Source: Planctomycetota bacterium
GTDB taxonomy: Bacteria > Planctomycetota > Planctomycetia > Pirellulales > UBA7805
DNA length: 64,000 bases
Direction: 5' to 3'
Assembly (NCBI GenBank): GCA_003389215.1
Contig: QQVP01000019.1
Span: forward strand, 1-64,000
Below, one piece after another: positions 1-37,404 of the stretch. The translations under genes were made by a program, and so were the position numbers. The notes below the pieces were generated by a model. That model saw nothing but the letters and a program-made list of their open reading frames with translations. It searched no databases and was not told the origin of the DNA. Position 1 is the stretch's first letter. Each line of letters opens with the position of its first letter.

Positions 1-320
1 AGTTGTTGGCGCTGCGGGACCGCGGACATCGCCTGGCGGCGTATGGCGCGGCTGCCAAGGGGACGATGCTGCTCAACGCCCTCGATCTGCCGGCCGACAC
101 CTTGGAGTTCGTAGCGGATCGCAATCTCCACAAGCACGGCAAACGCCTGCCGGGCGTCGACTGCCCGATCGTCGATGGCGATCAGTTGTTGGCCCGCCGG
201 CCGGACTATGTCCTGCTGCTCGCCTGGAACCACCACGAGGAGATTCTTCGCCAGCAGGCGGCGTACCGCGCCCAAGGTGGCAAGTTCATCATTCCCCTGC
301 CCCGCTTCGAGATCGTCTAA
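1..320 (+). CDS. C-methyltransferase, C-terminal fragment (cut by window edge)
   Basis: Only the last ~105 residues are inside the window and the frame is open to the left edge, so this is a 5'-truncated view, not a pseudogene. The visible part matches the C-terminal domain of sugar C-methyltransferases, a Rossmann-like domain following the SAM domain. It has a glycine-rich strand-turn (AAYGAAAKG), then an alternating VADRN / LLLAWNH pattern. These enzymes methylate carbon atoms of NDP-sugars or related precursors; the catalytic SAM domain is not visible. The next methyltransferase starts 21 nt downstream on the same strand and ends in the same kind of domain, so the two probably form one transcription unit. 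The family assignment is good; the substrate is unknown. Confidence 0.75.
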   Translation, partial: LLALRDRGHRLAAYGAAAKGTMLLNALDLPADTLEFVADRNLHKHGKRLPGVDCPIVDGDQLLARRPDYVLLLAWNHHEEILRQQAAYRAQGGKFIIPLPRFEIV

Positions 321-341
321 ACGGACGGCACGCGGATAGCC

Positions 342-1583
342 ATGGCCGATAACGGGACGTCCGACGCTGCTGCCGCCGCTCCCCCGCACGACGCCGGCGC
401 CGCCGGGCGATGTCCGGCGTGCCTCTCGGTCGACCTTCGGGGGTTCCTCGAGTACGAGCAGGTTCCGGTCCACGGGGTGCTGCTGATGTATAGCCGAGAG
501 GCGGGGCGAGCGCACCCGCGGGCCGACTTGCAGCTGGCCGTCTGCTCAGCCTGTGGGTTCGTCACGAATGTGCGGTTCGAGGCCGGCCAACACGAGTACG
601 GTCCCGACTACGAAGAGTCGCAACACTGCTCGTCGACCTTCAGTCGTTTCGCCGCTGAGCTCGCACGGCGCCTCGTCGATGATTTCGACTTGCGCGAGAA
701 GTCGATCGTCGAGATCGGCTGCGGCAAGGGAGAGTTCCTCGCCGAATTGTGCCGGGTTGGCAACAACCGCGGTGTGGGCATCGATCCGGCCTGTCGGCCG
801 GAACGGATCGATGCGGCCACGGCCGAGCGGATCGAGTTTCGACCAGAGTTCTACTCTGCGCAGCACGCCGGTCTGGCCGCCGACATGATTTGCTGCCGGC
901 ATACGCTCGAGCACATCCAGCCGGTCCACGAGTTCCTCACGCTGGTGCGTCGCAACATCAAGTCCGGCACGCGGCCAGTTGTCTTCTGCGAGGTCCCGAG
1001 CCTGGAGATCATCGTGCGCGAGGCCCGTTTCTGGGACCTCTACTACGAGCATTGCTCGTACTTCGACCGGGCGTCGCTGGCGACGCTCTTCGAGCGGACC
1101 GGATTCGATGTGCTGGACGTCTGGCTCGACTACGACGAACAGTATTTGTGCCTGACGGCGCGGCCGTCCGATCAAGCGGCCGACGAGCGTCGGGAAAGTC
1201 GAGCCACGGCGAACGCGGATCCGGATGTCGCCTCCCCCATGGCCGACTTCGCCGCGCGTTGCCGAGCAAGTATCACCCAGTGGCGCGAAGTCCTTGCCGC
1301 CTGGAGCGAACAGCAGCTTCGTCCCGTCCTGTGGGGAGCCGGGTCGAAGTGCGTGGCATTCCTGGCGGCCACCGGGCTCGATGAGGAAGTCGAGTACGTG
1401 GTCGACATCAACCCCTACAAGCAAGATCGCTTCCTGCCCGGTACGGGGCACCTTGTCGTCGCCCCCGAATCTTTGCGCGAGTATCGTCCCCGTCGTGTGC
1501 TAGCCATGAACTCCGTCTACCGCCAGGAAATCCAGGCCCAGCTCGATGCGCTCGGCCTGGACGCCGAACTGCACACGCTCTAG
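342..1583 (+). CDS. Class I SAM-dependent C-methyltransferase with zinc-binding N-terminus
   Basis: This 413-residue protein has the three-part layout of sugar C-methyltransferases. A zinc-binding N-terminal domain has cysteine pairs at C24/C27 and C68/C71. A SAM domain follows, with motif I (VEIGCGKG) at about 123-130 and a downstream CRHTLEHI stretch. A C-terminal Rossmann-like domain begins near WGAGSKCVAFL. Such enzymes usually modify NDP-keto-sugars, so it fits a glycan or glycolipid locus. It follows the truncated methyltransferase by 21 nt. Its TAG stop shares the palindrome CTAG with the stop of the convergent exporter gene, so the two genes overlap tail to tail. The start ATG gives a full-length family member. 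Substrate cannot be read from sequence. Confidence 0.85.
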   Translation: MADNGTSDAAAAAPPHDAGAAGRCPACLSVDLRGFLEYEQVPVHGVLLMYSREAGRAHPRADLQLAVCSACGFVTNVRFEAGQHEYGPDYEESQHCSSTFSRFAAELARRLVDDFDLREKSIVEIGCGKGEFLAELCRVGNNRGVGIDPACRPERIDAATAERIEFRPEFYSAQHAGLAADMICCRHTLEHIQPVHEFLTLVRRNIKSGTRPVVFCEVPSLEIIVREARFWDLYYEHCSYFDRASLATLFERTGFDVLDVWLDYDEQYLCLTARPSDQAADERRESRATANADPDVASPMADFAARCRASITQWREVLAAWSEQQLRPVLWGAGSKCVAFLAATGLDEEVEYVVDINPYKQDRFLPGTGHLVVAPESLREYRPRRVLAMNSVYRQEIQAQLDALGLDAELHTL

Positions 1584-3952
1584 CCGGCCCGACGGGTGTC
1601 AGTTTCTGGTTGGGGCTCAGCCGATGCAGGCGGCTCGGTCGACGGCGCACTTCCCGCCTCTACGTCGCCGTGCCCGTCAATTTCCAAGTGATCGTGCGTG
1701 CGTTCCTTGTCGCTGCGAGGGCGAAACGCGCGACCTAGCGGCGAAGCCAGCAATGCCGGAAGCACGATCAGGTCGCCCAGCAAGGCCGCCAACAACAGCC
1801 CGCACATGAGCCAAGCGAATTGTGAGATCGGCACGAATGGACTCGCGGCGAACACAAGCAGACCGAGCCCGCAGATCAGCGTGGTATGGAGCATCGCCGT
1901 CGCGGACGAGGCATAGGCCAGGCGAATCGCGTCGACCTGCGAGCGTCCTTCGAGCAGGCCTCGACGGTACCAGATCAGAAAGTGGGACGTGTCGTCGACG
2001 GCAATGCCGAGGGCCACGCTGGCCGTCATCATGGCCCCGATGTCGACCGCCCGACCGAGCCATCCCATCAAGCCGAACAGTAAGAGCGCCGGTAGCACGT
2101 TGGGCAACATGGAGATCAGGCCCGCCGCAGGACGACCGATAATTACGGTCATGGCGATGGCGATCAGCACGAACGCGGTGAGAAAACTGACCCCCAGATC
2201 CTCCAGCAGTTGTTGCTGCGCGGCGCACACCAGAGGAACGCCCCCGGCGACACGACTGGTCGCCCCCAAGGCCACGGCCTCCGCGTCGGCGGTCAAGAGC
2301 CTATCGACCTGGCTCCGCAGGTCGGCCAGCAGCGCGGGGTAGTCCACATCTCCAAGCGCCGGCACGCGAGCGCTGATGCGCCACAGTTCGGCGTCGTCCT
2401 CTTCGACAAGGAAGCGCAGCTTGTGAAACTCCTCGCGGGACTCTTCCATCCTCCGCTGCACGATCCCGCGGCGGGCGACGTCGCGAACGGAGCGACCCGC
2501 GGGCAACTCGGGTACGAAGGTGGACACCGCCAGCGCGGCCCCGACCTCCGGCCGTTCGGCAATCTCGCGACGGACCCGTTCCAGAATCTTGGCCCTTTGG
2601 AACAGAGGGTATCGCTCTTCCTCGGTGGGTCGATCGAGTTGAATGATGACCTCGACCGGCACCAGCGGACCGATGTTCTCCTCCAGCCAGGCGTAGTTGC
2701 GGATTGGCACCGAATCGCGGTGGAACATGTCACTCAACGTCACCGTGGTGCGAATCTGCGTTACCCCCCAGACCAGGAGAGGAACCAGCGGCAGGATGAC
2801 GACGAGCACGAGGATCCAGCGTCGTGTGGCAAGTCGAAACAAGGGTTGCCACCAGACGCTCGGCGAAGCTTGCGTGCTGGCCACCGCACCGCTCGAGCCC
2901 CGCGGCCATCGTTCCAACAGAGCCGGCCAGAGCAGAAACAGCGCCGCCAGGGCGACCAAGACCCCGACGGAAGAGAAGACTCCGAACTTGACGATCGGTA
3001 CGATCTGGCTGACCGCCAGCGAGCCGAGTCCGATCGCCGTGGTAAACGAGGCCAGTGCACAAGGGACCCAACCGTGACGAATGGCGCGGAGGAGCGCGTC
3101 GTCGTTGTCGCGTTCGCGGAGCGCGTCGGTGTAGTAGCCCGTCATGTGCACGGCGCCCGAGATCGCCAACACGTAGATCAATCCCGGCATCATCAACAGT
3201 ACGGCGTCCATGCGGCTAAACAGATAGACCAGCGAGAGGCTCACCGCCCAGGCGAAGGCCGCCGTGGCAAAGACCGCAGCCACCAGGCGAACACGTCGCA
3301 GGCACAGCCAGGCGAGAAGGAGTCCGCAAAGCGCCGACACCCCGCCCATTTCGAGGAGCCATTTCTCGCTGGCCGCGTTGATGGCGACACTATCGATGGT
3401 CGGCCCCCCCAGGCGCAGCTCGTCTCGAGAAATGCCCAGGTCGTCCGTCACGCGATAGACGGCCGCCACGGCGGCGGCCCGCTCGGGGATCGCTTCGTCT
3501 TTGATCAGGGCGACGGCACAGGTCGTCTTGCCATCCTCGCCGAGCAGCCAACCACGCATTCGCTCCGTGGCGACCCGTCGCGACAGCTCGGCGGGTGGGG
3601 CTCGCAGCTGCGCGAGCGTCTCGCGCCCCGTGAAGACGCGGTCGAAGTAGACCGTGTCGGCCGTGGTGCTGGGATCCTCGACAGGCTCGACCAGACGCTG
3701 GGCGAGGGCATCGAGGCGGGCATCGTCGAGCGTGCACCCCGGCCAGCTGATCATCAACAGCTCGTCGCTGCCGAACCGCTCGCCAAACCACTCCAGATCG
3801 CGATACTCCTGGAAGCCCTTGGGCAGCCAGTCCATGACGTCGTTGGTATTCGACGCCAGGGCCTGTAGGGCCCCGTAGACGAAAACCGGAAAGCAGACCA
3901 GCGCGACCAGGCAGACCCAGGCTCCCGAGCGTCGGTATGATATAGAGCCCAT
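1580..3952 (-). CDS. MMPL/RND-family membrane exporter
   Basis: About 790 residues with the duplicated RND layout: one N-terminal membrane helix, a large periplasmic loop, a block of about five helices (starting near LEMGGVSALCGLLLAWL), a second periplasmic loop and a second helix block near the C-terminus. Two conserved cores, GAVHMTGYYTD and GIAVDDTSHFLIWYRR, mark the paired transmembrane domains. The family uses the proton gradient to move lipids or hydrophobic molecules outward. A TTG lies 9 nt upstream of the chosen ATG; I prefer the ATG (MGSISYRR), which leads straight into the first helix, though neither has a clear Shine-Dalgarno site. A charged 45-residue cytoplasmic tail ends the protein. 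Its neighbours suggest a lipid or glycolipid cargo. Confidence 0.85.
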   Translation of the reverse strand: MGSISYRRSGAWVCLVALVCFPVFVYGALQALASNTNDVMDWLPKGFQEYRDLEWFGERFGSDELLMISWPGCTLDDARLDALAQRLVEPVEDPSTTADTVYFDRVFTGRETLAQLRAPPAELSRRVATERMRGWLLGEDGKTTCAVALIKDEAIPERAAAVAAVYRVTDDLGISRDELRLGGPTIDSVAINAASEKWLLEMGGVSALCGLLLAWLCLRRVRLVAAVFATAAFAWAVSLSLVYLFSRMDAVLLMMPGLIYVLAISGAVHMTGYYTDALRERDNDDALLRAIRHGWVPCALASFTTAIGLGSLAVSQIVPIVKFGVFSSVGVLVALAALFLLWPALLERWPRGSSGAVASTQASPSVWWQPLFRLATRRWILVLVVILPLVPLLVWGVTQIRTTVTLSDMFHRDSVPIRNYAWLEENIGPLVPVEVIIQLDRPTEEERYPLFQRAKILERVRREIAERPEVGAALAVSTFVPELPAGRSVRDVARRGIVQRRMEESREEFHKLRFLVEEDDAELWRISARVPALGDVDYPALLADLRSQVDRLLTADAEAVALGATSRVAGGVPLVCAAQQQLLEDLGVSFLTAFVLIAIAMTVIIGRPAAGLISMLPNVLPALLLFGLMGWLGRAVDIGAMMTASVALGIAVDDTSHFLIWYRRGLLEGRSQVDAIRLAYASSATAMLHTTLICGLGLLVFAASPFVPISQFAWLMCGLLLAALLGDLIVLPALLASPLGRAFRPRSDKERTHDHLEIDGHGDVEAGSAPSTEPPASAEPQPETDTRRAG

Positions 3953-4384
3953 GCACGCCAACCGTGGTGAATTGCCAAACGCGTTTCGAGTCGCTCACGA
4001 CTTGGGTGGTCGAAGAATTGGCAAACGGGCCCAGCCCGAGTTACGGCAGAGTGGTGTCTGCCCAGCGACCGGCCCGATGTCGCGTTCGACAAAGGTCAGT
4101 ATCGCAAGCGACAATTTGAGCGGCAATATCGAGCGCGACGGATGCGTTGGCGACGTCGCCCTGGGGTCCGCCCCCGGAGGCAGCCCGCGTGCCGCAGGTG
4201 AGACGTGAGTGCCGAAGGTGAGACGGGGGAGCCCAGCACCGCAGAGTCTCAGTCTTTGCAGTTCCCCTATTCTCACGATTAGGGCTGACCTCGGGTGCCT
4301 GGCTTGTTATCCTTGGGCTTCGTTTTTCGAGGGAACTTCGTCGTCAAGGCAGTCAATACCAGGGACGAATTCCACAGGCAGGAG
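3953..4384. other. Non-coding gap between divergent exporter and SDR genes
   Basis: This 432-base stretch separates two divergent genes. Open frames inside it (for example on the plus strand up to 4208) lack family features and a Shine-Dalgarno site and are not called. Promoters for both neighbours should lie here, but I cannot point to a convincing -35/-10 pair. A short tandem repeat at 4189-4225 is listed separately. Confidence 0.5.
4189..4225. repeat. Two-copy tandem repeat, 20-nt period
   Basis: GTGCCGCAGGTGAGACG at 4189-4205 recurs as GTGCCGAAGGTGAGACG at 4209-4225, with one mismatch and a 3-nt spacer. It lies about 160 nt upstream of the SDR start, in the divergent gap. It could be a regulator-binding pair or slipped-strand duplication; two copies do not decide. 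Confidence 0.6.
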
Positions 4385-5965
4385 ATGACTTCAACCTATA
4401 CCCTCCTCACCGGCGCAACGGGCCTCGTCGGTCGCTACCTGATTCGTGACCTGCTACTGGAGGGCCAACGACTCGCCCTGCTGGTGCGACGCTCGCGACG
4501 CCAAACCGCCGTCGAGCGCGTCGAGGCGATCCTGCAGCACTGGGAAAAGGACCTCCCGGAACCGCTGCCCCGTCCGGTGGTGCTCGAAGGCAACATCACG
4601 GAAGAACGGCTCGGGCTGTCGAGCGCGTCGACTGCCTGGATCGCGGCCCACTGCTCCCGTGTGATTCACAACGCGGCCACGCTGCAGTTTCACGGTAGTG
4701 ACCGCAGCGGAGAGCCGTGGTCGACCAACCTGGGTGGCACTCGCAATACGCTCGAGCTGTGCCGGGCGACCGGCATCGCCGACTTGCATTACGTCTCGAC
4801 CGCCTACGTCTGCGGAATTCGCGACGACCTGGTCCGCGAGGACGAGCTCGACACCGGCCAGTCGTTTCGCAACGACTACGAACGGAGCAAGTTCGAGGCG
4901 GAGAAATTGGTCCGCGCGGCCGACTTCCTCGAACAGCTGACCGTCTATCGACCCAGCGTGATCGGCGGGGACTCGCGAACGGGCTATACGAGCACCTATC
5001 ACGGGCTGTACCTCTATCTGAGGCTGCTGTCGTTGTTGGTCCATAACGTGCCGCCTGGGCCGGACGGGGTGCGGCATACGCCGATTCAGCTGCCGCTGCG
5101 CGGAGACGAGCCACGGAATCTGGTAGCGGTCGATTGGGTGTCTCGTGTCATTTGTCGCTTGCTTGACACGCCGGCGGCGCACGGCGGCACCTATCACCTG
5201 ACACCCGCACGCGGTGTGACCGCGCGGGACCTGGTTGAGGCCGCCTACGAACACTTCAATTCGCGCGGCGTCGAGTTTGCCGGGGAGCAGGCCGCCCGCG
5301 ATGAAAAGGGGCCGAGCGGGTTCGGCCAGGCCGTATTCGAGAATAAGAGCATTTACGAGGCCTACGAAACGAGCGATCCTCAGTTCGATCGTGCGCAGCT
5401 TCTCCGCTTTGCCGCCGACATTCCCGAACCATGCCTGGGTAAGGACGCCATTCTCAACTACTGGAGATTCGCCGAGGCGGATGACTGGGGCAGGCGACGT
5501 GAACCGGAGCCTGAAGTCCCCTGCTGGATTGCCGATCAGCTGCGACCTTCGACCGTGGAAGCACCGAGTAGCGTCTCGGCCGGCAGCGACACGCCTCCTG
5601 GCGGCACCAACGGCAGCGGCACGCCCGACTCGGCAGGCCCGCGCGTGTTCGGCCTCGATGTCCGCGGTCCCGGTGGCGGCCAGTGGACGGTCCGCCTGGG
5701 TGATGACCGGCACTTCGAAGTCGAGCTCGGCCTGCCGAACGCCGAGGCAGAAGCGGTGCAGATCGACGCCCGTGATTTGGCGGCACGCCTCCAGGCGGGG
5801 GGAGCCGCGGCCAGCGACAGTCAGGTTGCTACCGAAGCCGCGGGCCGTCTACTCGCGGAGCTCGTGAGCGGGGCTATGGAGTCCTCTGGTCCGACCGTCG
5901 ACACCAAAACGGCACCGACCGTCTCGGTCGACCCGCCGGACGAGAGCGTGCTCCGCCTAGAGTGA
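4385..5965 (+). CDS. Thioester-reductase-like SDR (NAD_binding_4 type)
   Basis: A 526-residue extended short-chain dehydrogenase. The nucleotide-binding TGATGLVG motif is at residues 9-16, the catalytic serine region is at STAYVCG, and the Tyr-Lys pair (YERSK) is near residue 165. The fold and spacing match the NAD_binding_4 group, which includes the reductase domains that release acyl thioesters from NRPS/PKS carriers and fatty acyl-CoA reductases. The ~130 residues after the SDR core form a Pro/Ser/Gly-rich linker and a small C-terminal module I do not recognise. I chose the ATG at 4385, directly preceded by AGGAG, over the upstream GTG at 4295. The last 9 nt overlap the convergent glycosyltransferase gene. 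The likely job is reducing a fatty or polyketide acyl chain; this is inference. Confidence 0.75.
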   Translation: MTSTYTLLTGATGLVGRYLIRDLLLEGQRLALLVRRSRRQTAVERVEAILQHWEKDLPEPLPRPVVLEGNITEERLGLSSASTAWIAAHCSRVIHNAATLQFHGSDRSGEPWSTNLGGTRNTLELCRATGIADLHYVSTAYVCGIRDDLVREDELDTGQSFRNDYERSKFEAEKLVRAADFLEQLTVYRPSVIGGDSRTGYTSTYHGLYLYLRLLSLLVHNVPPGPDGVRHTPIQLPLRGDEPRNLVAVDWVSRVICRLLDTPAAHGGTYHLTPARGVTARDLVEAAYEHFNSRGVEFAGEQAARDEKGPSGFGQAVFENKSIYEAYETSDPQFDRAQLLRFAADIPEPCLGKDAILNYWRFAEADDWGRRREPEPEVPCWIADQLRPSTVEAPSSVSAGSDTPPGGTNGSGTPDSAGPRVFGLDVRGPGGGQWTVRLGDDRHFEVELGLPNAEAEAVQIDARDLAARLQAGGAAASDSQVATEAAGRLLAELVSGAMESSGPTVDTKTAPTVSVDPPDESVLRLE

Positions 5966-7219
5966 GGTATGCGGCCCTGACTCGGGTAACGGCGAGTCGG
6001 TATAGGGCCGATACTCGACCAACCGCACGGACCGAGAAGGCGAGATCTCGTAGTCGATGCCGCGCCACTTCACGCGTCGCAGCACCATCAGCCGCGTCAG
6101 AACGGTCGGGTAGAGAACCTGGGTGACGGGCACCGAGATCGCAGTGAGCGCCGCAAGCGCGGGGGTGAACCACCGCGTCGGTTCGCCCCGTGCGCGAACG
6201 ATGCGGCGGACGGCCCACTCCATCGGGGCCAGCAGACCGAGCAACGCCAGGTCGTAGAGCACAAGACCCACAGCCAGCCAGACCAGACTCGTCAGGTCCC
6301 CTTGCAGGCCAGCGGCGATCATGGCCGCGACGGCCGCCGCCGGCACCAGCGCCGTGATGACGGCGTGAAAGACCACCAGCGGCCAGGCGCGGTGGTACAG
6401 CCGCGCGGTGAGCAGCTGCCGGGTGACCCAGGAGAAGAAACCGCCCAACGTACAGGCCTCGCGATTGACCATCATCAGCGAGGGCACGAAGGCGACGCTC
6501 AGACCGGTCGAGCGGAGCACCTGGGGCATCATCGTGTCTTCACAAAAAGCGTGGGCCCAGCGCTCGAGCACGTCAGTTTCCCGCAGCACCCGGGCCTTGA
6601 TCGCCATCGTGCCACCCCAGGGGATGGCGTAGCAGAACATCTGTACGACCGCCGCCGCATTCCAGTGGTAGCGGACCAGTGAGCCGAGTTGCGCCTGTCG
6701 CGGCATGTACCAGCGATTGCCGGTTGCCACGCCTACCGATTCGTCGGCCAAAGCGCCGGCGAATTCCCGCAGCCAGCTGCGGTGTGGAATCGTATCGGCG
6801 TCGAGCAGGGCTACAAAGGCGCACTCGTCCGGGAGCTGGTCGACGGCGGTAAGCAGGCTGCTGCACTTCAGGCTGCACGTCGACCGCCGCTCTGCCAGGG
6901 CGACGATTTCGAACGACGCCGCAGCGTGTCCTGCCGCGATCTGCTGAACCAGCTGCCAGGCTGGATCCTCGCGACTGTCGACCACCACCTGGACCCGGTA
7001 GTTCGGATAGTCGAGCTGCACGAGCGCCGAGAGACAATCCTCCAGAAACGGATCGCGGCCACGCAGACAGAGCACCACGGTGGCCGGCGGGCAGGCCGCA
7101 TCCTCCGGCAGGGGGCGGCGAAACTGCCACAGCGCCCGCACGAACGCCGCCACCAGAAAGCCCTGGCTGATGAAGAGAATGGCGAGCAGCCCGTTGATGC
7201 CGATGACGACGTCATTCAC
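5957..7219 (-). CDS. Family 2 glycosyltransferase, membrane-bound
   Basis: 420 residues with a membrane helix at about 6-30, a GT-A catalytic domain, and three or more helices toward the C-terminus. The catalytic domain shows the strand TVVLCLRGRD, the metal-binding DAD at 140-142, an acidic CEDTMM region near 220 and a WVTRQLL motif like the (Q/R)xxRW of processive GT2 enzymes. This architecture transfers sugars from nucleotide donors to lipid or polysaccharide acceptors at the inner membrane. The start overlaps the end of the condensation-type gene by 4 nt (ATGA), so the two are probably translationally coupled. The acceptor is unknown; the neighbours suggest a lipid. Confidence 0.85.
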   Translation of the reverse strand: MNDVVIGINGLLAILFISQGFLVAAFVRALWQFRRPLPEDAACPPATVVLCLRGRDPFLEDCLSALVQLDYPNYRVQVVVDSREDPAWQLVQQIAAGHAAASFEIVALAERRSTCSLKCSSLLTAVDQLPDECAFVALLDADTIPHRSWLREFAGALADESVGVATGNRWYMPRQAQLGSLVRYHWNAAAVVQMFCYAIPWGGTMAIKARVLRETDVLERWAHAFCEDTMMPQVLRSTGLSVAFVPSLMMVNREACTLGGFFSWVTRQLLTARLYHRAWPLVVFHAVITALVPAAAVAAMIAAGLQGDLTSLVWLAVGLVLYDLALLGLLAPMEWAVRRIVRARGEPTRWFTPALAALTAISVPVTQVLYPTVLTRLMVLRRVKWRGIDYEISPSRSVRLVEYRPYTDSPLPESGPHTSL

Positions 7220-8607
7220 GGTGCCGGTTCCCCTGCGGTCTGGGCGATCGGACGTTTCTTCCCGACGAACCTTCGCTCCGCGTCCGCAGAGCGATGCAGG
7301 CGATCGACGTAGCGGTCGAGCAAGTCGGCCGCCTCGGTCGAGGAGAGGGCCCGTGAATCGTAGTGGAGCGACACACCTAGTCGTCCGGCATAGGTCAGCA
7401 GACTAAACCCGGCACAGGTTTGGGGGCGTAGCGGACCCAGGCCTTCCACGTCCGTCAGCACAGCGTCGCCGATGGTCAGGCGGCCGTCGCTGCCCGTCAG
7501 CGGGGACGTTGCCCAGGGCTCGCCGAGATTGGACAGCGAGGCGGTCGCCACGCAGCGTTCATCCCAGTGGTGCCGCGCCAGGCCGCCGGGCAACATCCGT
7601 GCCACGACCAGCGAAAGGATGTAGGTGAAGCCGAGGTGACGGCGCTTGATCAGATCCATCTGTTCGTGAAGCGAACGGAGGAGGTCCGCTTCGTCGCGGC
7701 CGTCTTCCTTGCGACGATCGAGAAACACCGAACTCACCACGTTCGCTGCCGGCAACTCGACATCTGCCGCCGAGCGCAGGTTCATGGGCACCATGATGCG
7801 CAGCCAGTCCTGCTCATCGCCAATCTTCAGGTCGTGGCGCCACTCGATGAGCGTGACGAACAAATCGCGTAAGGCCAGATCGTTGAGCGTGGCTCCCTGC
7901 TGTCGCGCCGCCGCACGGAACTTCCGCGTGGCGTTCGGATCGAGGTGGGCCGTGAGGGCCGCCGGATAGTCGGGCGCGGGCGACGAGTCGCGGAGGCGAA
8001 GTTCGTGGGGACGCAGCGGTACCGGTTTGCGGGCGAGGAATTCACGCACGCCGAACAGTCCCGATAGCTGTGGGACGAAGAGCCGCAGCACCCGCGTGGC
8101 GGTTAGTCCGAAGCGGTTTCGCCCTGGCAACCTTTGCGAATCGACCGGCGGCAAAGCGGGGGCGGAGCGTTCGCTGGCATACGCCGCGTAGCGGGTGAGC
8201 CACTCCTCCGCGAACTGAAACCCGGCGGCGCCGTCGCAGCAGGCGTGGTGAAACTGGAGAATCAGCTCGGTCCCATCGCCGTCGACGGAGGCCGACACGC
8301 GCAGGCCTGCCTCTTCTTCGATCTTCAGTGGCGAGAGCGTCTCTTCGCGAGCCGCGCGAGGGCCCTCGCTCCACCGCAAGGGGTGAGGCTCGGCCGGGAC
8401 CCAGACGCAGCGACGGTCCTGCAGGCGACTGACGCGTGCTCTTAGCAGTGGATGCCGAGCGACGGAGTCGGCGAGTGCTCGCTCCAGCGGCGAGCGGTGC
8501 AGGCAGCCCGCGAACCGGAGGCGGAGGACGAAGTTCCACGGATACGCAGGACGGTCGTCTTGGACGAGCGACTCCTCGAAGGCGGTCAATCCCAAGGGAT
8601 AGGTCAT
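7216..8607 (-). CDS. Condensation-domain acyltransferase (PapA/WS-DGAT-like)
   Basis: 463 residues with the HHxxxDG active-site signature (H120, H121, D125, G126) of the condensation / wax-ester-synthase / PapA superfamily. The N-terminus (FEESLVQDD) matches the usual first strand, and a second conserved region (VPMNLR) lies about 150 residues after the active site. It is a stand-alone domain with no carrier protein or adenylation domain, which is typical of enzymes that esterify a hydroxyl with an acyl thioester. It is the first gene of a two-gene unit with the glycosyltransferase and reads toward the SDR and exporter. Transfer of an acyl chain onto a glycolipid or diol is the natural reading, but substrate is not visible. 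Confidence 0.8.
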   Translation of the reverse strand: MTYPLGLTAFEESLVQDDRPAYPWNFVLRLRFAGCLHRSPLERALADSVARHPLLRARVSRLQDRRCVWVPAEPHPLRWSEGPRAAREETLSPLKIEEEAGLRVSASVDGDGTELILQFHHACCDGAAGFQFAEEWLTRYAAYASERSAPALPPVDSQRLPGRNRFGLTATRVLRLFVPQLSGLFGVREFLARKPVPLRPHELRLRDSSPAPDYPAALTAHLDPNATRKFRAAARQQGATLNDLALRDLFVTLIEWRHDLKIGDEQDWLRIMVPMNLRSAADVELPAANVVSSVFLDRRKEDGRDEADLLRSLHEQMDLIKRRHLGFTYILSLVVARMLPGGLARHHWDERCVATASLSNLGEPWATSPLTGSDGRLTIGDAVLTDVEGLGPLRPQTCAGFSLLTYAGRLGVSLHYDSRALSSTEAADLLDRYVDRLHRSADAERRFVGKKRPIAQTAGEPAP

Positions 8608-9080
8608 CGGCGTCGGACAAGCTCGTTAAGAGTCATTTCGTGCCATAACGACAGCGGTGGACTGCCCGATTGTGGCACAACGGTTGCGACTCGAACAGCG
8701 GAAAAAAAGCGCGGCTCAATTGACGACGCGGGAGCACCTACCCGAGGCGGCTGACCCGACGGTTTACGATCTTGCTCGACCTGCCGAGGGTCGCGCGAGA
8801 GTCATCGGGTGGGCTCTCGGTGGATGGGCCGAATACGCACCGACACCGGGTTGCCGCGTTGACTTTAAGAAACGTGTGCAGGCAGGGAGCGAAAAAGGCC
8901 TAGAATTCAGGCCGAACCTCGGCCGCTCAAGTGCGCGTGTGCGGGGTGGCACAGCCACGCCCCGCCCCAACAAGACAGGCTAGACTTCAAATGGAGACCT
9001 GAACGTCTCCCGTCTGACGCGTCAGACGCAAGGTGGGGCCCGGCGGGCCCTGCAGGCGAGCGTGAAAGCGAGGTGACACC
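8608..9080. other. Intergenic region and leader upstream of the PilZ gene
   Basis: The 473-base gap separates the divergent condensation and PilZ genes. An open plus frame at 8657-8983 has no recognisable family and is not called. The part nearest the PilZ gene is rich in dyads: a GC-rich stem near 8940-8965, the perfect 18-bp palindrome at 9011-9028 and a GGGCCC-based stem near 9036-9050. A TTGACT (8859-8864) and a TAGAAT (8901-8906) are present but 36 nt apart, too far for one sigma-70 promoter. Confidence 0.5.
9011..9028. promoter_or_regulatory. Perfect 18-bp palindrome upstream of the PilZ gene
   Basis: CGTCTGACGCGTCAGACG reads identically on both strands, with no spacer and no mismatch. 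It ends 52 nt before the PilZ ATG, where an operator or a leader hairpin would sit. An 18-bp exact palindrome is unlikely by chance at one place, though GC-rich sequence raises the background. Confidence 0.55.
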
Positions 9081-9440
9081 ATGAGCAGTACTCCGTTGAC
9101 CGACCTCCGAGAACCAACACGAGCCCGAGCTTCGCAGGCGAGCTCGAGCCATGAGCGAAATTCGCTCGATGAGCGGCGCACCGCCACGCGGATGCAAAAG
9201 ACGCCCGATACCGAGTTCGGGATGATCTGGTCGCGAGTGGGCGAGGCGCTGCCGGCCGAAGTCCACGATGAATCGTTGGGCGGACTGGCTCTGCTTGTCG
9301 ACGACGCGACCGGTTACCGCGTGGGAGGCGAAGTCGAGATCTACTATCAGTCGACCATCTACACCGGCGAGGTGCGACATATTGAGCCGTTAAGTGACGG
9401 CACCTTTCGGGTGGGTTTCGAGTGCCATTCGCAGGACTAA
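9081..9440 (+). CDS. PilZ-domain protein (putative c-di-GMP binder)
   Basis: 119 residues. The N-terminal ~40 are polar and probably disordered. The rest fits a single PilZ domain: an RxxxR motif at R33-R37 and a DxSxxG motif at D63-G68 (DESLGG), followed by hydrophobic strands ending at GFECHSQD. Both motifs contact cyclic di-GMP in known PilZ proteins, so ligand binding is likely. The start ATG has a GAGGTG Shine-Dalgarno 7 nt upstream. It stands alone, with no flagellar, pilus or cellulose genes nearby, so its effector partner is unknown. The upstream palindrome may regulate it. Confidence 0.75.
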   Translation: MSSTPLTDLREPTRARASQASSSHERNSLDERRTATRMQKTPDTEFGMIWSRVGEALPAEVHDESLGGLALLVDDATGYRVGGEVEIYYQSTIYTGEVRHIEPLSDGTFRVGFECHSQD

Positions 9441-9484
9441 GTGGCGCGGTGTGGCATCGCGCGATCGCCCAGCTCCCGCACACT

Positions 9485-9895
9485 TCAGCCGGCCCGTAGC
9501 AGAGCCTCACTACGATCGATGGCCTGGACGCGGAGTTGGTCCATCTCGTCCATCAGCTGTTCGAGCTTTTCCTGATCTTGGCCCGCGCGGCACATCTTGG
9601 CGGTCAGCCTCTCGTAGGCCCGGTTCCAGCTGAGCCACAACATCAGGGCCTCTTGCCAGGCCAAGTCGTCCGCTGTCTTCTCGTCGCCCCGCGGCGATGT
9701 TCCTCTTAGCATTTCCGCCCGGGCTGCCGCCGGCACGTCTTCGAGGGCCAGCCGTGTCTTCGACATGGGGAATCGCTTGTCGCGGCGGTTGTGCATTCCC
9801 TGACGATTACCGCCCCGGGAACCGTTCTGCTGGCGGCTTGTGGCGACTCGGCGAGATGGTTTCGAGACGGCCGCACGACTTGGACGAGACTTCAT
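9485..9895 (-). CDS. Small conserved hypothetical protein
   Basis: 136 residues from the ATG at 9895. The start is set by AGGAGG about 8 nt upstream, which rules out the longer open frame back to 10063. The first ~50 residues are rich in Arg, Ser and Gln; the rest is predicted mostly helical and charged (AWQEALMLWLSWNRAYERL, then a heptad-like QEKLEQLMDEMDQLRVQ), compatible with a short coiled coil. There is no signal peptide or membrane segment. I do not recognise the family. It is convergent with the PilZ gene and divergent from the universal stress gene. Confidence 0.65.
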   Translation of the reverse strand: MKSRPSRAAVSKPSRRVATSRQQNGSRGGNRQGMHNRRDKRFPMSKTRLALEDVPAAARAEMLRGTSPRGDEKTADDLAWQEALMLWLSWNRAYERLTAKMCRAGQDQEKLEQLMDEMDQLRVQAIDRSEALLRAG

Positions 9896-10249
9896 AGCCG
9901 ATCCCTCCTGCCCCAGGATGTCCGCGGCGACGCGGCCGCTGCGCCATGCCCACGGCCCAGCGTCGTGAAAGGGTCCGCCTGCCCGGAGTCGGGCGCGAGA
10001 CGTGTAAGAAGCGGCCCCTCGTGTTCTGTCCGAAATTATTCCCGCGCCGTCGCCGACCGGCAAGCAAGAAATCGGCCGGACGAACGCGATTCTCAGCGAC
10101 CTGCGCCGTCTTTCCGCACGATCGGCCAGCTCCGCCCAGGCGGCATAGTTTCAACCTCGCCGGCCTTCCCATCTGGGGTGCGGCGAAGGCGCTATCTCGC
10201 GATACAATACGAACCGATCAGCCTATGAGTCACTAACGAGGTGCCACGC

Positions 10250-10714
10250 ATGGTGTCGTTCGAACGAATCTTGTTTCCCACCGACTTCAGCGCTTACTCG
10301 GCGGCGGCCCGGGAGTATGCCGGCACGCTTGCCGAGCAGTTCGACGCAGAACTGCACCTGTTGCACGTCTTGGAACAGCACGCCGGCATCGATCCGGTGT
10401 TTGCCGCGGGCCTGGCGATTCCCACGGCAAGTGCCGAGTCTTCAGCCTGGGCCGAGGAGAAGCTCGCGGAAGTTTACACGGCTGCCTGGACGGAGGCGCA
10501 CCGAGTTGTCCGGGCGACCGCGAAGGGCCCGCCGTTCCTCGAGATCCTCCGCTACGCCGAGGAGCATCAGATCGACTTGATCGTGATGGGGACGCACGGT
10601 CGTTCCGGCCTGGCCCATGTGTTGATGGGTAGTGTCGCCGAGCGGGTCGTCCGCAAGTCGCGGTGCCCCGTGTTGACGGTGCGGCCGCAGGAGCACGAAT
10701 TCAGCATGCCGTGA
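10250..10714 (+). CDS. Universal stress protein, UspA family, ATP-binding type
   Basis: 154 residues covering one Usp domain. It opens with the strand ILFPTDFS, whose aspartate contacts the nucleotide. Near the C-terminus it carries the full ATP-binding signature G-2x-G-9x-G-S (GTHGRSGLAHVLMGS), so it belongs to the nucleotide-binding branch. I prefer the ATG at 10250 over the GTG at 10241 because a GAGG site then sits about 8 nt upstream. A TACAAT at 10203-10208 could be the -10 element, but no matching -35 is visible. These are cytoplasmic stress-survival proteins; the gene is monocistronic and convergent with rtcB. Confidence 0.9.
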   Translation: MVSFERILFPTDFSAYSAAAREYAGTLAEQFDAELHLLHVLEQHAGIDPVFAAGLAIPTASAESSAWAEEKLAEVYTAAWTEAHRVVRATAKGPPFLEILRYAEEHQIDLIVMGTHGRSGLAHVLMGSVAERVVRKSRCPVLTVRPQEHEFSMP

Positions 10715-10843
10715 CGACAGCCACCGCGCTGATTGCAAGCCAGGGCCCCACGGACGACAAACGTGGCCCAGGCACGCACTCTTGCTGTTCCGGTGTGCCT
10801 CTTCACCCGCCTGCCGGTCGGCTATCCAAGCGTAACGATCGCC

Positions 10844-35328: not shown

Positions 35329-37404
35329 TCATGCCTCGGCGCGCGGTGGCTCCAAGAGCTGAGCGCGCAGCTTGCGCCGCATCACCTTGTTCGAGGCGGT
35401 CCGCGGCAGCTCGTCAACCGGTATCACGCGGGCGATCTTGAATAACGGGTTGAGCTGGCTGCGAATCTGCTGGTTCATAGCCTGCCGCAGCGACTGCTGG
35501 TCGTTGGCCTGGCTGGCCGCCACGACGAACACGACGAGCTCGTCCGGTCCGCCCGCCGCGTTGCCGACGGCCACGGCCGCCGTCTCGTAAACGCCGGGCA
35601 GTGTGTTCAGCACGCGTTCGATCTCGGCCGAGCTGATCTTGATGCCGCCCAGGTTCATGGTGTCGTCGACTCGCCCGCCCGCGATATAGCCGCCATCGGG
35701 CAAGCGCCGAAGATAGTCGCCATGTCGCCGCAGAGTGCGACAGTGTGCATCTTCCGGAACGCCTTCATAATAGGTCGACACGTGGTCGCGGTTCAGCAGT
35801 TCGCTGGAGAGCCCGATCGACGGCGGCACCAAAAACAGTTCGCCCTCTTCGCTCTCCTGCCCTTGCTCGTCACAGATCGTGAAGTCGAGGCCCATCGCCG
35901 GCGTGGTGAAGACCGACGGGGCATTCGCTTCGACGACGGTGGAAGTGATGTAGCCACCTCCGATCTCCGTGCCTCCGCAATACTCGATCACCGGCCGCAT
36001 GTTGGCCAGCGACGAGAGGTAAAACATCTTCTCGGCGGCCGACGCTTCGCCGGTCGAGCTGAAGGTGCGAAGACGACTCCAATCGCACGACTCCATGCAG
36101 CCGCTCTCCTGCCAGCTGGCGACCAGAGTCGGCACGACGCCCAGCATGGTGACCTCGGCCTCTTCCACGAAGCGGCCGAACTCCGCTCCGCTGGGGGCGT
36201 CTTCGAACAGCGCCAGCGTGGCGCGATTCAGCAGGGCGGCAAAGATCAGCCAGGGCCCCATCATCCAGCCCAGGTTCGTGGGCCACGCCAACACATCGCC
36301 GCGGTGAACGTCTTGATGCAGCAGGGCATCTGCCGCACACTTCAAGGGCGTGGTGTGATTCCAGGGAATCGCCTTCGGCTCGCCCGTCGTGCCCGAGGAG
36401 AACAGCACGTTGATGGCGTCGGACGCAGCGGCGATGTGCGGCGAGAACTCGGGCGTCTCGTCCGCGCGATCGAGGAAGTCCGACCAGGTCACGTCGCCCT
36501 CGCGCAGGGAGCCCGGGGTCGCGGCAGCGGAGGGGCCTTCTGGAGTCAGCACGATCGTCCTCGGCGGCCCACTCTCCACGACGCGACGATAGAGCTCGAT
36601 ACGCTTGCCGGCCCTCTGCAAATGCTCATACGTGAAGACGGCTTTGGCCTTCGCGATACCCAGCCGGGTGGCGATTTGCGGGACGGCAAAACTGTCGGCG
36701 ATCGAGACGACCACACAGCCGGCCGCCACGATGCCGAGATAGATGGCGACCGCCTCGCTCGTCATCGGCAGCACCACCGCAATTGCATCACCCGCGTGGA
36801 AGCCAGAGTTGCGCAGGGCGGACGCGACCTGGGCAACGCGGTGGCGAAGTTCGCCGTACGATGTTCGCCGCAGCGGCCTGCCTGGGCCGCCGGAGATCAC
36901 GGCCACCTGTTCGGCGTCGTTCTGGAAACAGCTCTCGACGATATTCAGGCGGGCCCCGGTTAGCCACCGCGCGGCGGCCGGCCCGTCGCTCTCATCGAGC
37001 ACTGCCGAGGGTGGCTCACAAAAGACGATTGCGAGTTCGTCGATGACCTTTTGCCAAAACGCCTCCCGCTGTTCGACCGACCAGCGATGCAGTTGCGGAT
37101 AGCTTTGGCATCCCTGTTCGCTCATCCAGCGCGTCAGGTTGGCCTCCGCGAGATCCTGTTCCGCAGGGAGCCACATCGGTCGCGATTCCGAAGTGCCGGC
37201 ATTGGCACCGTCAAAGATAGCGTCCCAGAGGGCTCGATAGCCCGCCGGCGAGCACGTCGAGCGATCGAGTCGATCGATGATCTCACGCCAGAGCCGCGCG
37301 GGCTCTCGCATAGAATCGCTCTTCAGGTCCGCCAGGCGCGACTCGAGCAGGGCCCGATCCGCGGCCGACATCTCGACGTCTACGAGATCTTTGAGAATCG
37401 TCAT
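35329..37404 (-). CDS. Acyl-CoA synthetase, acetoacetyl-CoA-synthetase-like
   Basis: 691 residues of the adenylate-forming ligase family. An ACAS_N-type N-terminal segment (SYPQLHRWSVEQREAFW) is followed by the phosphate-binding loop SSGTTGEPKAIPW, the YCGGTEIGGG motif, the hinge aspartate in GGRVDDTMNLGGIKIS, and the catalytic lysine K673 in PRTASNKVMRRK. The N-terminal segment and length fit acetoacetate-CoA ligase. The context supports it: the gene ends the operon that degrades tyrosine to fumarate and acetoacetate, and activating acetoacetate would complete the pathway. Acetate or another short acid is the alternative. It follows the flavin-reductase gene by 64 nt. Confidence 0.8.
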   Translation of the reverse strand: MTILKDLVDVEMSAADRALLESRLADLKSDSMREPARLWREIIDRLDRSTCSPAGYRALWDAIFDGANAGTSESRPMWLPAEQDLAEANLTRWMSEQGCQSYPQLHRWSVEQREAFWQKVIDELAIVFCEPPSAVLDESDGPAAARWLTGARLNIVESCFQNDAEQVAVISGGPGRPLRRTSYGELRHRVAQVASALRNSGFHAGDAIAVVLPMTSEAVAIYLGIVAAGCVVVSIADSFAVPQIATRLGIAKAKAVFTYEHLQRAGKRIELYRRVVESGPPRTIVLTPEGPSAAATPGSLREGDVTWSDFLDRADETPEFSPHIAAASDAINVLFSSGTTGEPKAIPWNHTTPLKCAADALLHQDVHRGDVLAWPTNLGWMMGPWLIFAALLNRATLALFEDAPSGAEFGRFVEEAEVTMLGVVPTLVASWQESGCMESCDWSRLRTFSSTGEASAAEKMFYLSSLANMRPVIEYCGGTEIGGGYITSTVVEANAPSVFTTPAMGLDFTICDEQGQESEEGELFLVPPSIGLSSELLNRDHVSTYYEGVPEDAHCRTLRRHGDYLRRLPDGGYIAGGRVDDTMNLGGIKISSAEIERVLNTLPGVYETAAVAVGNAAGGPDELVVFVVAASQANDQQSLRQAMNQQIRSQLNPLFKIARVIPVDELPRTASNKVMRRKLRAQLLEPPRAEA

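Follow-up and report, generated by a model that had tools for sequence, protein, structure and literature searches.

The first 8,607 nucleotides of a planctomycete contig (the 64,000-nucleotide stretch that was analysed is called the window) raise the question of whether one gene cluster encodes the production and export of an acylated glycolipid. A first-pass annotation had proposed such a locus, analogous to mycobacterial PapA/MmpL systems, on finding genes for two sugar C-methyltransferases, an MMPL exporter, a thioester-reductase-like SDR, a membrane GT2 glycosyltransferase and a stand-alone condensation-fold acyltransferase (called COND). ORF calls and family profile searches recovered this entire gene set as described (Table 1), and the HHxxxDG motif of COND lies exactly at H120–G126, as claimed. 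We assign a probability of roughly one-half to the reading that these genes are the core and right half of an acylated-glycolipid locus with a variable (here C-methylated) sugar and MMPL export, a function that is predicted.

Table 1 Features of the locus (window coordinates unless a contig is named)
Feature	Coordinates	Strand	Evidence
N-terminal rest of the cut C-methyltransferase, fused to an NDP-sugar epimerase/dehydratase-like SDR	contig C126, L008:3-2282	-	Epimerase, Methyltransf_13, _23, _14
Sugar C-methyltransferase, C-terminal part (Methyltransf_14)	3..320	+	PF08484 4.4e-36; truncated by contig end
Second C-methyltransferase-type protein	342..1583	+	Methyltransf_23 and Methyltransf_14
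MMPL/RND-type transporter, HAE3-like	1580..3952	-	PF03176 61.5 bits (gathering score 20.5)
MMPL–SDR intergenic region, genes divergent	3953..4384		Gene geometry
Stand-alone thioester/acyl reductase-like SDR	4295..5965	+	NAD_binding_4 2.4e-44
Membrane GT2 glycosyltransferase, HpnI/ceramide-glucosyltransferase-like	5957..7219	-	PF13641 3.6e-16
Stand-alone condensation-fold acyltransferase (COND)	7216..8607	-	PF00668 2.5e-7; HHACCDG at 120-126

The longest ORF of the MMPL gene spans 1580–3961, with the ATG at 3952 as its likely start, and homologues of the SDR begin near 4385 (residue 31), downstream of the ORF start at 4295. The divergent MMPL/SDR arrangement recurs in three related loci (L060, L092 and L197), and its geometry makes the intergenic stretch a possible shared control region. 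The end of the COND gene overlaps the start of the GT2 gene by 4 nt.

Protein families of the locus

COND resembles PapA5 (phthiocerol dimycocerosyl transferase, PDB 1q9j), which is among its PDB profile matches, and WS/DGAT enzymes in fold (Z 28.9 and 26.2, respectively), in the HHxxxDG motif and in stand-alone size. It differs from them in its low identity to PapA5 (16%) and in scores far under the family cut-offs, namely 26.6 bits for the PapA5 model NCBIfam PRK09294 (cut-off 396) and 50.5 bits for the WS/DGAT model TIGR02946 (cut-off 309.95). Of the solved structures, the nearest is AzeD (8s6l, a dehydratase by title; Z 36.0), not PapA5; the accessible portion of PMC10880069 contains nothing on AzeD enzymology. 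The PF00668 score of 30.2 bits falls just under the cut-off of 30.6. An AF2 model of COND has a pLDDT of 90.4, residues H120, H121, D125, N242, R270 and N360 are invariant in 28/28 sequences, HHxxxD[GA] is present in 56 of 58 relatives, and TIGR02946 is matched at E ≤ 0.01 by all 28 of the 28 relatives searched.

The SDR has the extended-SDR fold of thioester reductase (R) domains, and its TGxxGxxG, S168 and Y195xxxK199 signatures are invariant in 16/16 members. Its fold is much nearer to R domains (Z 33.1) than to sugar epimerases (about 26), and its sequence matches the MxaA R domain at 1.7e-42. The likeness to R domains (MxaA, the S. coelicolor PKS reductase, PDB 4u7w and 8v1x) extends to 27–28% identity and the catalytic S/Y/K residues, although the 131.8 bits scored against the thioester reductase model TIGR01746 are under its curated cut-off of 213.35. 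Unlike terminal R domains, the SDR lacks a fused carrier protein or synthase and has an extra C-terminal module (450-530), which may be SCP2-like, judging from its predicted strands and helices; no Pfam family matched this module in any of the 16 members. The SDR also matches Epimerase (7.4e-17). Rossmann SDRs are promiscuous, and therefore this enzyme could also take a sugar substrate.

With its predicted membrane segments, the GT2 shares the family (GT21-like GT2), the DxD and ED motifs and membrane anchoring with HpnI and ceramide glucosyltransferase. Residues D140xD142, D228 and R267-Q268 are invariant in 13/13 sequences. The match to the HpnI model (1.8e-25; score 89.6) is below its cut-off of 310 and that to ceramide glucosyltransferase is at 3.7e-4. 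The transporter belongs to the MMPL/RND family, exceeding the Pfam gathering score (Table 1). It matches TIGR00921 at 3.8e-34, under the cut-off, and scores 44.5 bits against the 874.7 bits set for the actinobacterial-type MmpL subfamily TIGR00833; a phmmer search of PDB sequences returned no match. Its own genome has two more MMPL sites in a first DNA search (C13 and C103), both lacking the other proteins of the locus, and six MMPL matches in a later protein search.

These family matches bear on whether the genes instead form a hopanoid or other triterpenoid or carotenoid glycoside locus, with an HpnI-like GT2, an HpnA-like SDR, an HpnN-like MMPL and an acyl ester added by COND. HpnI, HpnA and HpnN models are indeed matched, but every score is far under its cut-off, and the SDR is R-domain-like. 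Mariniblastus-type loci have the SDR–GT2 pair near squalene/phytoene synthase and LytB genes; the neighbouring genes there alternate in strand, however, and therefore do not form one operon. The window's own genome has no squalene/phytoene synthase, and its matches to squalene-hopene cyclase domains are partial and weak (the best has 39.4 bits over 125/319 positions). With neither the Hpn cut-offs reached nor squalene synthesis present, we rejected assignment to an hpn locus, and a triterpenoid or carotenoid product seems very improbable.

Leftward extension, sugar genes and the search for a PKS

The locus runs on leftward onto contig C126, which shares 127 identical nucleotides with the window start at the contig ends; C126 terminates in a 35-nt dispersed repeat, where the assembly stops. 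Extension in this direction, recommended by the first-pass annotation to look for PKS, FAS-like or acyl-ligase genes, led to sugar-nucleotide genes and a second GT2. The sugar genes are a glucose-1-phosphate cytidylyltransferase (scoring 307.1, above its curated cut-off of 300.25) and an NDP-sugar SDR fused to the C-methyltransferase that the window start interrupts. Sugar genes are exchanged among relatives, with different cassettes next to conserved SDR, GT2 and MMPL genes. Where the present locus has the cytidylyltransferase and the Epimerase/C-methyltransferase fusion, L120 has RmlB-like, NTP_transferase, DegT aminotransferase and GT28 genes, L117 has RmlB-like, pyruvyl transferase and FrhB genes, and L118 has a methyltransferase.

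A cell-surface polysaccharide or glycan locus would also fit the sugar-nucleotide genes, which lie both on C126 and in relatives (where pyruvyl transferase and FrhB genes occur), and the Epimerase match of the SDR. In such a locus, the SDR would modify a sugar, GT2 would be a polysaccharide synthase, COND a sugar O-acyltransferase and MMPL merely a neighbour. The R-domain likeness of the SDR in both sequence and fold argues against this, as do the PKS genes that adjoin related SDRs, the closeness of GT2 to lipid glycosyltransferases, and the absence of a polymerase or flippase among the family-scanned genes from C126 to COND. We therefore consider a glycan locus unlikely.

Mycobacterial PapA/MmpL surface-lipid loci include PKS and fatty-acyl-AMP ligase genes. 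Neither occurs in positions 1–10800 of the window or on C126, and we recognised neither an acyl donor gene nor an ACP within the locus. The claim that the window holds no PKS or fatty acyl ligase stands for that interval; farther away, at 35329–37404, there is an AMP-binding ligase (ACAS_N, acetyl-CoA-synthetase type). For this assembly we rejected a leftward PKS: the window contig and C126 have none, and nowhere in the assembled genome is a multidomain PKS encoded, its six KS matches never lying in a frame of more than 468 amino acids.

The product could still come from a PKS, as a polyketide or very long chain lipid like mycobacterial PDIM/PGL/LOS or the heterocyst glycolipids, if the PKS lay elsewhere or were missing from the assembly, which is 92.9% complete. 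Relatives of the SDR and COND do lie beside KS-AT-ACP-KR-DH synthases in L090, L094, L096 and L104, accompanied by a PPTase, an enoyl reductase, a Rieske enzyme, an aminotransferase and an AMP ligase, and in L060 and L092 SDR relatives directly adjoin a PKS, with MMPL alongside. Nevertheless, in a tree of the window SDR and 99 distinct SDR rows from 159 loci (weak, short or identical rows dropped), 8/8 PKS-linked rows fall in one 12-row branch and none in the 88-row branch holding the window. Together with the short KS frames, this makes a PKS-derived product improbable.

Gene linkage in related planctomycetes

Linkage was surveyed in 146 genomes of the order, leaving out matches of the window's own genome, and chance expectation was computed with a 5-Mb genome and random placement. 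The SDR and COND lie within 15 kb of each other at 35 of 71 SDR sites, in 32 of the 49 genomes that have both (0.58 sites expected), and the SDR and GT2 do so at 18/71 sites, in 18/25 genomes with both (0.32 expected). COND and GT2 occur together in 10 of 29 genomes, always within 1 kb (0.4 expected); at 10 distinct loci COND is followed by GT2 in the same direction, and the two usually form an operon. MMPL linkage, counted within retrieved loci, puts this gene beside the SDR at 16 distinct loci in relatives. Because SDR–COND and SDR–GT2 linkage is far above chance, the possibility raised by the first-pass annotation that related genomes keep none of these genes together does not hold: COND, the SDR, GT2 and MMPL are retained jointly far beyond chance.

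The full four-gene set is not the norm. Besides the window, it is found at five distinct loci (L045/L186, L086/L195, L197, L209 and L212). Among the best 80 of 239 SDR loci (44 of the 80 span 18 kb or more), GT2 is present in 43, MMPL in 16, COND in 8, all three in 5 and none in 32. The commonest pair is SDR with GT2, and COND and MMPL are optional partners of the SDR. Some partner-less SDR loci are on short contigs, yet one 20-row tree branch consistently lacks the partners. In G001, a genome of the same family, a single contig carries SDR, MMPL and COND, with no GT2 match.

Optional partners, and the many SDR loci without them, are what would be expected if these were neighbours without shared function, separate genes for lipids and for sugars that stay adjacent through lineage synteny. 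However, the association of these gene families persists in several taxonomic families of the order despite changes in gene order and strand, and COND and GT2 overlap here. Mere synteny is accordingly quite improbable.

Distinct counts exclude, by hand, loci in which one contig was retrieved twice, as judged by its length (L045=L186, L086=L195, L117=L178, L119=L175, L120=L144, L121=L151, L122=L167, L123=L163 and others). Flanks were inspected for 60 of 104 COND sites, L077 covering two. The simple ORF picker overlooked some genes or fused them wrongly (as in L078, L083 and L087), and tblastn positions were therefore preferred.

Comparison with known systems

As in mycobacterial PapA/MmpL loci, a condensation-fold acyltransferase and an MMPL transporter occur here together with lipid genes. 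The proposed analogy is upheld by the retained gene combination, the PapA5 profile match and the leftward sugar-nucleotide genes, but not at the level of strict protein likeness, given the PapA5 and MMPL-subfamily scores and the precedence of AzeD over PapA5. Our best reading is that the locus would work like mycobacterial LOS/PapA-MmpL loci, yet is no member of them, its function being predicted.

According to the accessible part of PMC12507525, the Mycobacterium marinum LOS locus with MmpL12 likewise unites glycosyltransferases (including GT2-family enzymes), acyl-transfer genes and MmpL in one cluster, its sugars vary by glycolipid form, and export by MmpL was demonstrated by mutant. That system has an acyltrehalose core and an actinobacterial envelope, whereas the present locus has a stand-alone R-domain-like reductase in a Gram-negative planctomycete, and curated scores indicate only a remote relationship to the Pap and MMPL proteins.

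The heterocyst glycolipid (hgl) island, as far as the available text of PMC11804610 describes it, shares a stand-alone thioester reductase, a glycosyltransferase, an epimerase-dehydratase and an exporter, and its genes surround a reduced long-chain alcohol. The island includes PKS genes and exports through an ABC system; the present locus has MMPL in its place, no PKS was found, and the condensation-fold acyltransferase and sugar C-methylation genes are additional. An hglE-type PKS is absent from the window's own genome and its SDR branch. Lipid-type synthases are known in the same phylum from secondary-lipid and hglE-KS clusters (PMC3098273, PMC13190842), and SDR and COND relatives adjoin such synthases; the window's branch is without PKS, and the accessible parts of those two papers do not describe the present gene set.

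A predicted glycolipid pathway

In the acylated-glycolipid reading, the cytidylyltransferase and NDP-sugar SDR would make a CDP-sugar, which the two Methyltransf_14-type enzymes may C-methylate to a branched (deoxy)sugar. The stand-alone reductase would then convert an acyl thioester (acyl-CoA or acyl-ACP), presumably from normal fatty acid synthesis because no PKS was found, to an aldehyde or alcohol. One or both GT2 enzymes could attach the sugar to this lipid at the membrane, COND, coupled to GT2 translation, would add a further acyl group in ester linkage to a hydroxyl, and MMPL would extract the product from the inner membrane. The data establish the gene content, the fold and family of the proteins, the conservation of catalytic residues and of linkage, and the exchange of sugar cassettes; we infer each substrate, the order of these steps, the direction of export and the surface location that would make the product a surface lipid.

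More tentatively, planctomycetes may own a widespread PKS-free surface-glycolipid system, a counterpart of mycobacterial LOS whose sugar cassette is swapped between lineages like an antigen; we regard this broader proposal as possible rather than probable. Chains from ordinary fatty acid synthesis would be reductively released by the free-standing R-domain enzyme, GT21-like enzymes would add species-specific (C-methylated, amino or pyruvylated) sugars, and the acyltransferase would cap the product before MMPL exports it. Our searches of an open-access library found no paper on a planctomycete glycolipid or gene set of this kind. If the proposal is true, planctomycetes would have a variable surface lipid comparable to mycobacterial LOS, built around a conserved reductase–GT2 core, with the acyltransferase and MMPL as optional additions and the sugar genes interchangeable. 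Deletion targets exist in a named organism, Bythopirellula polymerisocia Pla144, whose locus L151 has the SDR, two GT2 genes and MMPL; another SDR–MMPL site lies elsewhere on that contig.

A second allele of the locus lies on contig C120, with 91% nucleotide identity over 5.1 kb. Its dN/dS values relative to the window (0.23 for the second methyltransferase, 0.13 for MMPL and 0.14 for the first 279 amino acids of the SDR) indicate that these three genes are under purifying selection.

Gene content and conserved linkage of the locus

The genes that the first-pass annotation had read as a possible exported (glyco)lipid locus were all recovered in place, at the left end of the window (G000:C15:1-64000; draft genome of 5.55 Mb in 135 contigs, 92.9% complete). 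The gene for the condensation-fold protein (COND) lies upstream of the membrane glycosyltransferase (GT2) gene in the same direction, with a 4-nt overlap (GTGA). To the right are a universal stress protein gene (10241-10714) and RtcB, DUF1501 and Planctomycete cytochrome genes, all of which look unrelated to the locus. The approximately 1.2 kb at 8907-10063 holds two minus-strand open reading frames with weak coding bias and no Pfam family match, and is possibly intergenic. An AMP ligase of the acetyl-CoA-synthetase type (ACAS_N) is encoded at 35329-37404.

Genes of the locus and sugar genes of related loci
Feature	Position	Strand	Remark
C-methyltransferase, end part	3-320	+	cut by contig end
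Second C-methyltransferase-type protein	342-1583	+	
MMPL transporter	1580-3952	-	
Thioester-reductase-like protein (SDR)	4295-5965	+	divergent from MMPL; homologues begin near 4385
GT2	5957-7219	-	
COND	7216-8607	-	
N-terminal part of the cut C-methyltransferase	contig C126		fused behind epimerase/dehydratase-like SDR
Glucose-1-phosphate cytidylyltransferase	contig C126		TIGR02623, 307.1 bits (cut-off 300.25)
Second GT2	contig C126		HpnI-like
Sugar genes, window locus			cytidylyltransferase, epimerase, C-methyltransferases
Sugar genes, locus L120			RmlB-like, NTP_transferase, DegT aminotransferase, GT28
Sugar genes, locus L117			RmlB-like, pyruvyl transferase, FrhB
Sugar gene, locus L118			methyltransferase

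We searched for SDR, COND and GT2 across 146 genomes of the order, excluding own-genome matches from linkage counts. No more than 15 kb separates SDR and COND at 35 of 71 SDR sites and in 32 of the 49 genomes that carry both (0.58 sites expected); for SDR and GT2 this applies at 18 of 71 sites and in 18 of 25 genomes (0.32 expected). Linkage of COND to GT2, every time within 1 kb, occurs in 10 of 29 genomes (0.4 expected), and 10 distinct loci place COND ahead of GT2 on the same strand. All three lie close together in eight genomes. Among the best 80 of 239 named SDR loci, all titled as Planctomycetota taxa, 43 carry GT2, 16 MMPL and 8 COND; five have all of these, and 32 have none. MMPL belongs to a large family, with at least one relative in 127 of the 146 genomes.

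Within one genus that includes Bythopirellula polymerisocia, the genes of respiratory complex I are interrupted between those for the 49-kDa subunit and NADHdh by the MMPL-SDR-GT2 cluster (L119, L120 and L121). At Mariniblastus-type loci (L145, L148, L160, L165 and similar), the SDR-GT2 pair adjoins 3-keto-disaccharide hydrolase, LytB and squalene/phytoene synthase genes on alternating strands.

Predicted protein functions

The SDR belongs to the NAD_binding_4 family, and its TGxxGxxG, S168 and Y195xxxK199 are invariant in 16 of 16 relatives. Its closest solved relative by profile search is the terminal thioester reductase (R) domain of MxaA (1.7e-42). The predicted model (mean pLDDT 76.3) scores higher against R domains (Z 33.1, rmsd 3.2-3.8 across 334-344 residues) than against sugar epimerases (Z about 26).

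COND residues H120, H121, D125, N242, R270, R278, T355 and N360 are invariant in 28 of 28 relatives, and HHxxxD[GA] is present in 56 of 58. The predicted model has a pLDDT of 90.4. The top solved match by both sequence (6.6e-19) and fold (Z 36.0) is AzeD (8s6l), deposited as a dehydratase, yet with its chain named after PapA5. Together with the matches to PapA5 itself (5.9e-12, Z 28.9) and a wax-ester synthase (Z 26.2), this establishes the fold and makes acyl transfer likely.

In GT2, the DxD motif (140-142), D228 and R267-Q268 are invariant in 13 of 13 relatives; the nearest named families are HpnI (score below cut-off) and ceramide glucosyltransferase. The transporter matches Pfam MMPL far above threshold and an HAE3-like model below cut-off, phmmer found no PDB relative, and D653-D654 and H269 are invariant in 13 of 13.

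Protein family membership suggests a pathway for the locus. A C-methylated, CDP-derived sugar would be produced, and reduction of an acyl thioester supplied by ordinary fatty acid synthesis would yield an aldehyde or alcohol. The reduced product would then be glycosylated at the membrane by GT2 enzymes, given an acyl ester by COND and moved outward by MMPL.

A PKS-free locus type

Loci of a first type (L090, L094, L096 and L104) combine an SDR relative and COND with a multidomain PKS (KS-AT-ACP-KR-DH), a PPTase, a Rieske enzyme, an enoyl reductase, a class-III aminotransferase and an AMP ligase, a conserved cluster that possibly makes an amino lipid. At L060 and L092, also of this type, the PKS adjoins SDR directly, with MMPL and COND near. 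In the SDR tree, all eight PKS-linked rows fall in one fully supported 12-row branch, whereas none of the other 88 rows, the window included, lies beside a PKS. The PKS that the first-pass annotation suggested might lie to the left is not borne out in this assembly. The window represents a second, PKS-free type: SDR and GT2, in many cases joined by MMPL and COND, plus sugar genes that vary by genome. The window's methyltransferase, cytidylyltransferase and epimerase-methyltransferase did not come out as best hit at any of the 80 fetched loci of the order or the 80 named loci.

The proposed pathway resembles two published systems. In the Mycobacterium marinum lipooligosaccharide (LOS) locus, glycosyltransferases and acyl-transfer genes cluster with MmpL12, which exports LOS (PMC12507525). 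In heterocyst glycolipid (hgl) islands, a thioester reductase and a glycosyltransferase work on a long-chain alcohol (PMC11804610). The window locus belongs to neither, because it has no PKS, only remote Pap and MmpL scores, and no ABC exporter; those scores also speak against the close mycobacterial likeness originally suggested. The surface-lipid idea itself was soundly drawn and is strengthened by the conserved linkage. The locus is real and conserved and, judged from sequence, of lipid type, built from known kinds of enzymes and undescribed in the literature searched.

Left continuation and a second allele

The window begins at the end of its contig, and its first 127 nt are common to contig C126, which carries the locus onward. 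C126 terminates in a 35-nt dispersed repeat (L008:4352-4386), which also occurs three times on contig C38 and in contigs C39 and C89.

Contig C120 (L007) is a second allele of the methyltransferase-MMPL-SDR part (window 1-5132): its two ends are identical to window 1-127 and 5006-5132 over 127 nt each, and the sequence between them is 91% identical. Codon changes between the alleles give dN/dS values of 0.23, 0.13 and 0.14, which indicates purifying selection on this part. The own-genome assembly holds no second copy of window 5-24 kb. The two alleles may stem from local hyperdivergence at a putative surface-lipid locus or be a leftover of strain mixing.

On a further own-genome contig, C103 (L010:1007-7075), a FabF-like ketosynthase gene adjoins genes for an MMPL paralogue of 1039 aa and a BBP7 beta-barrel porin.
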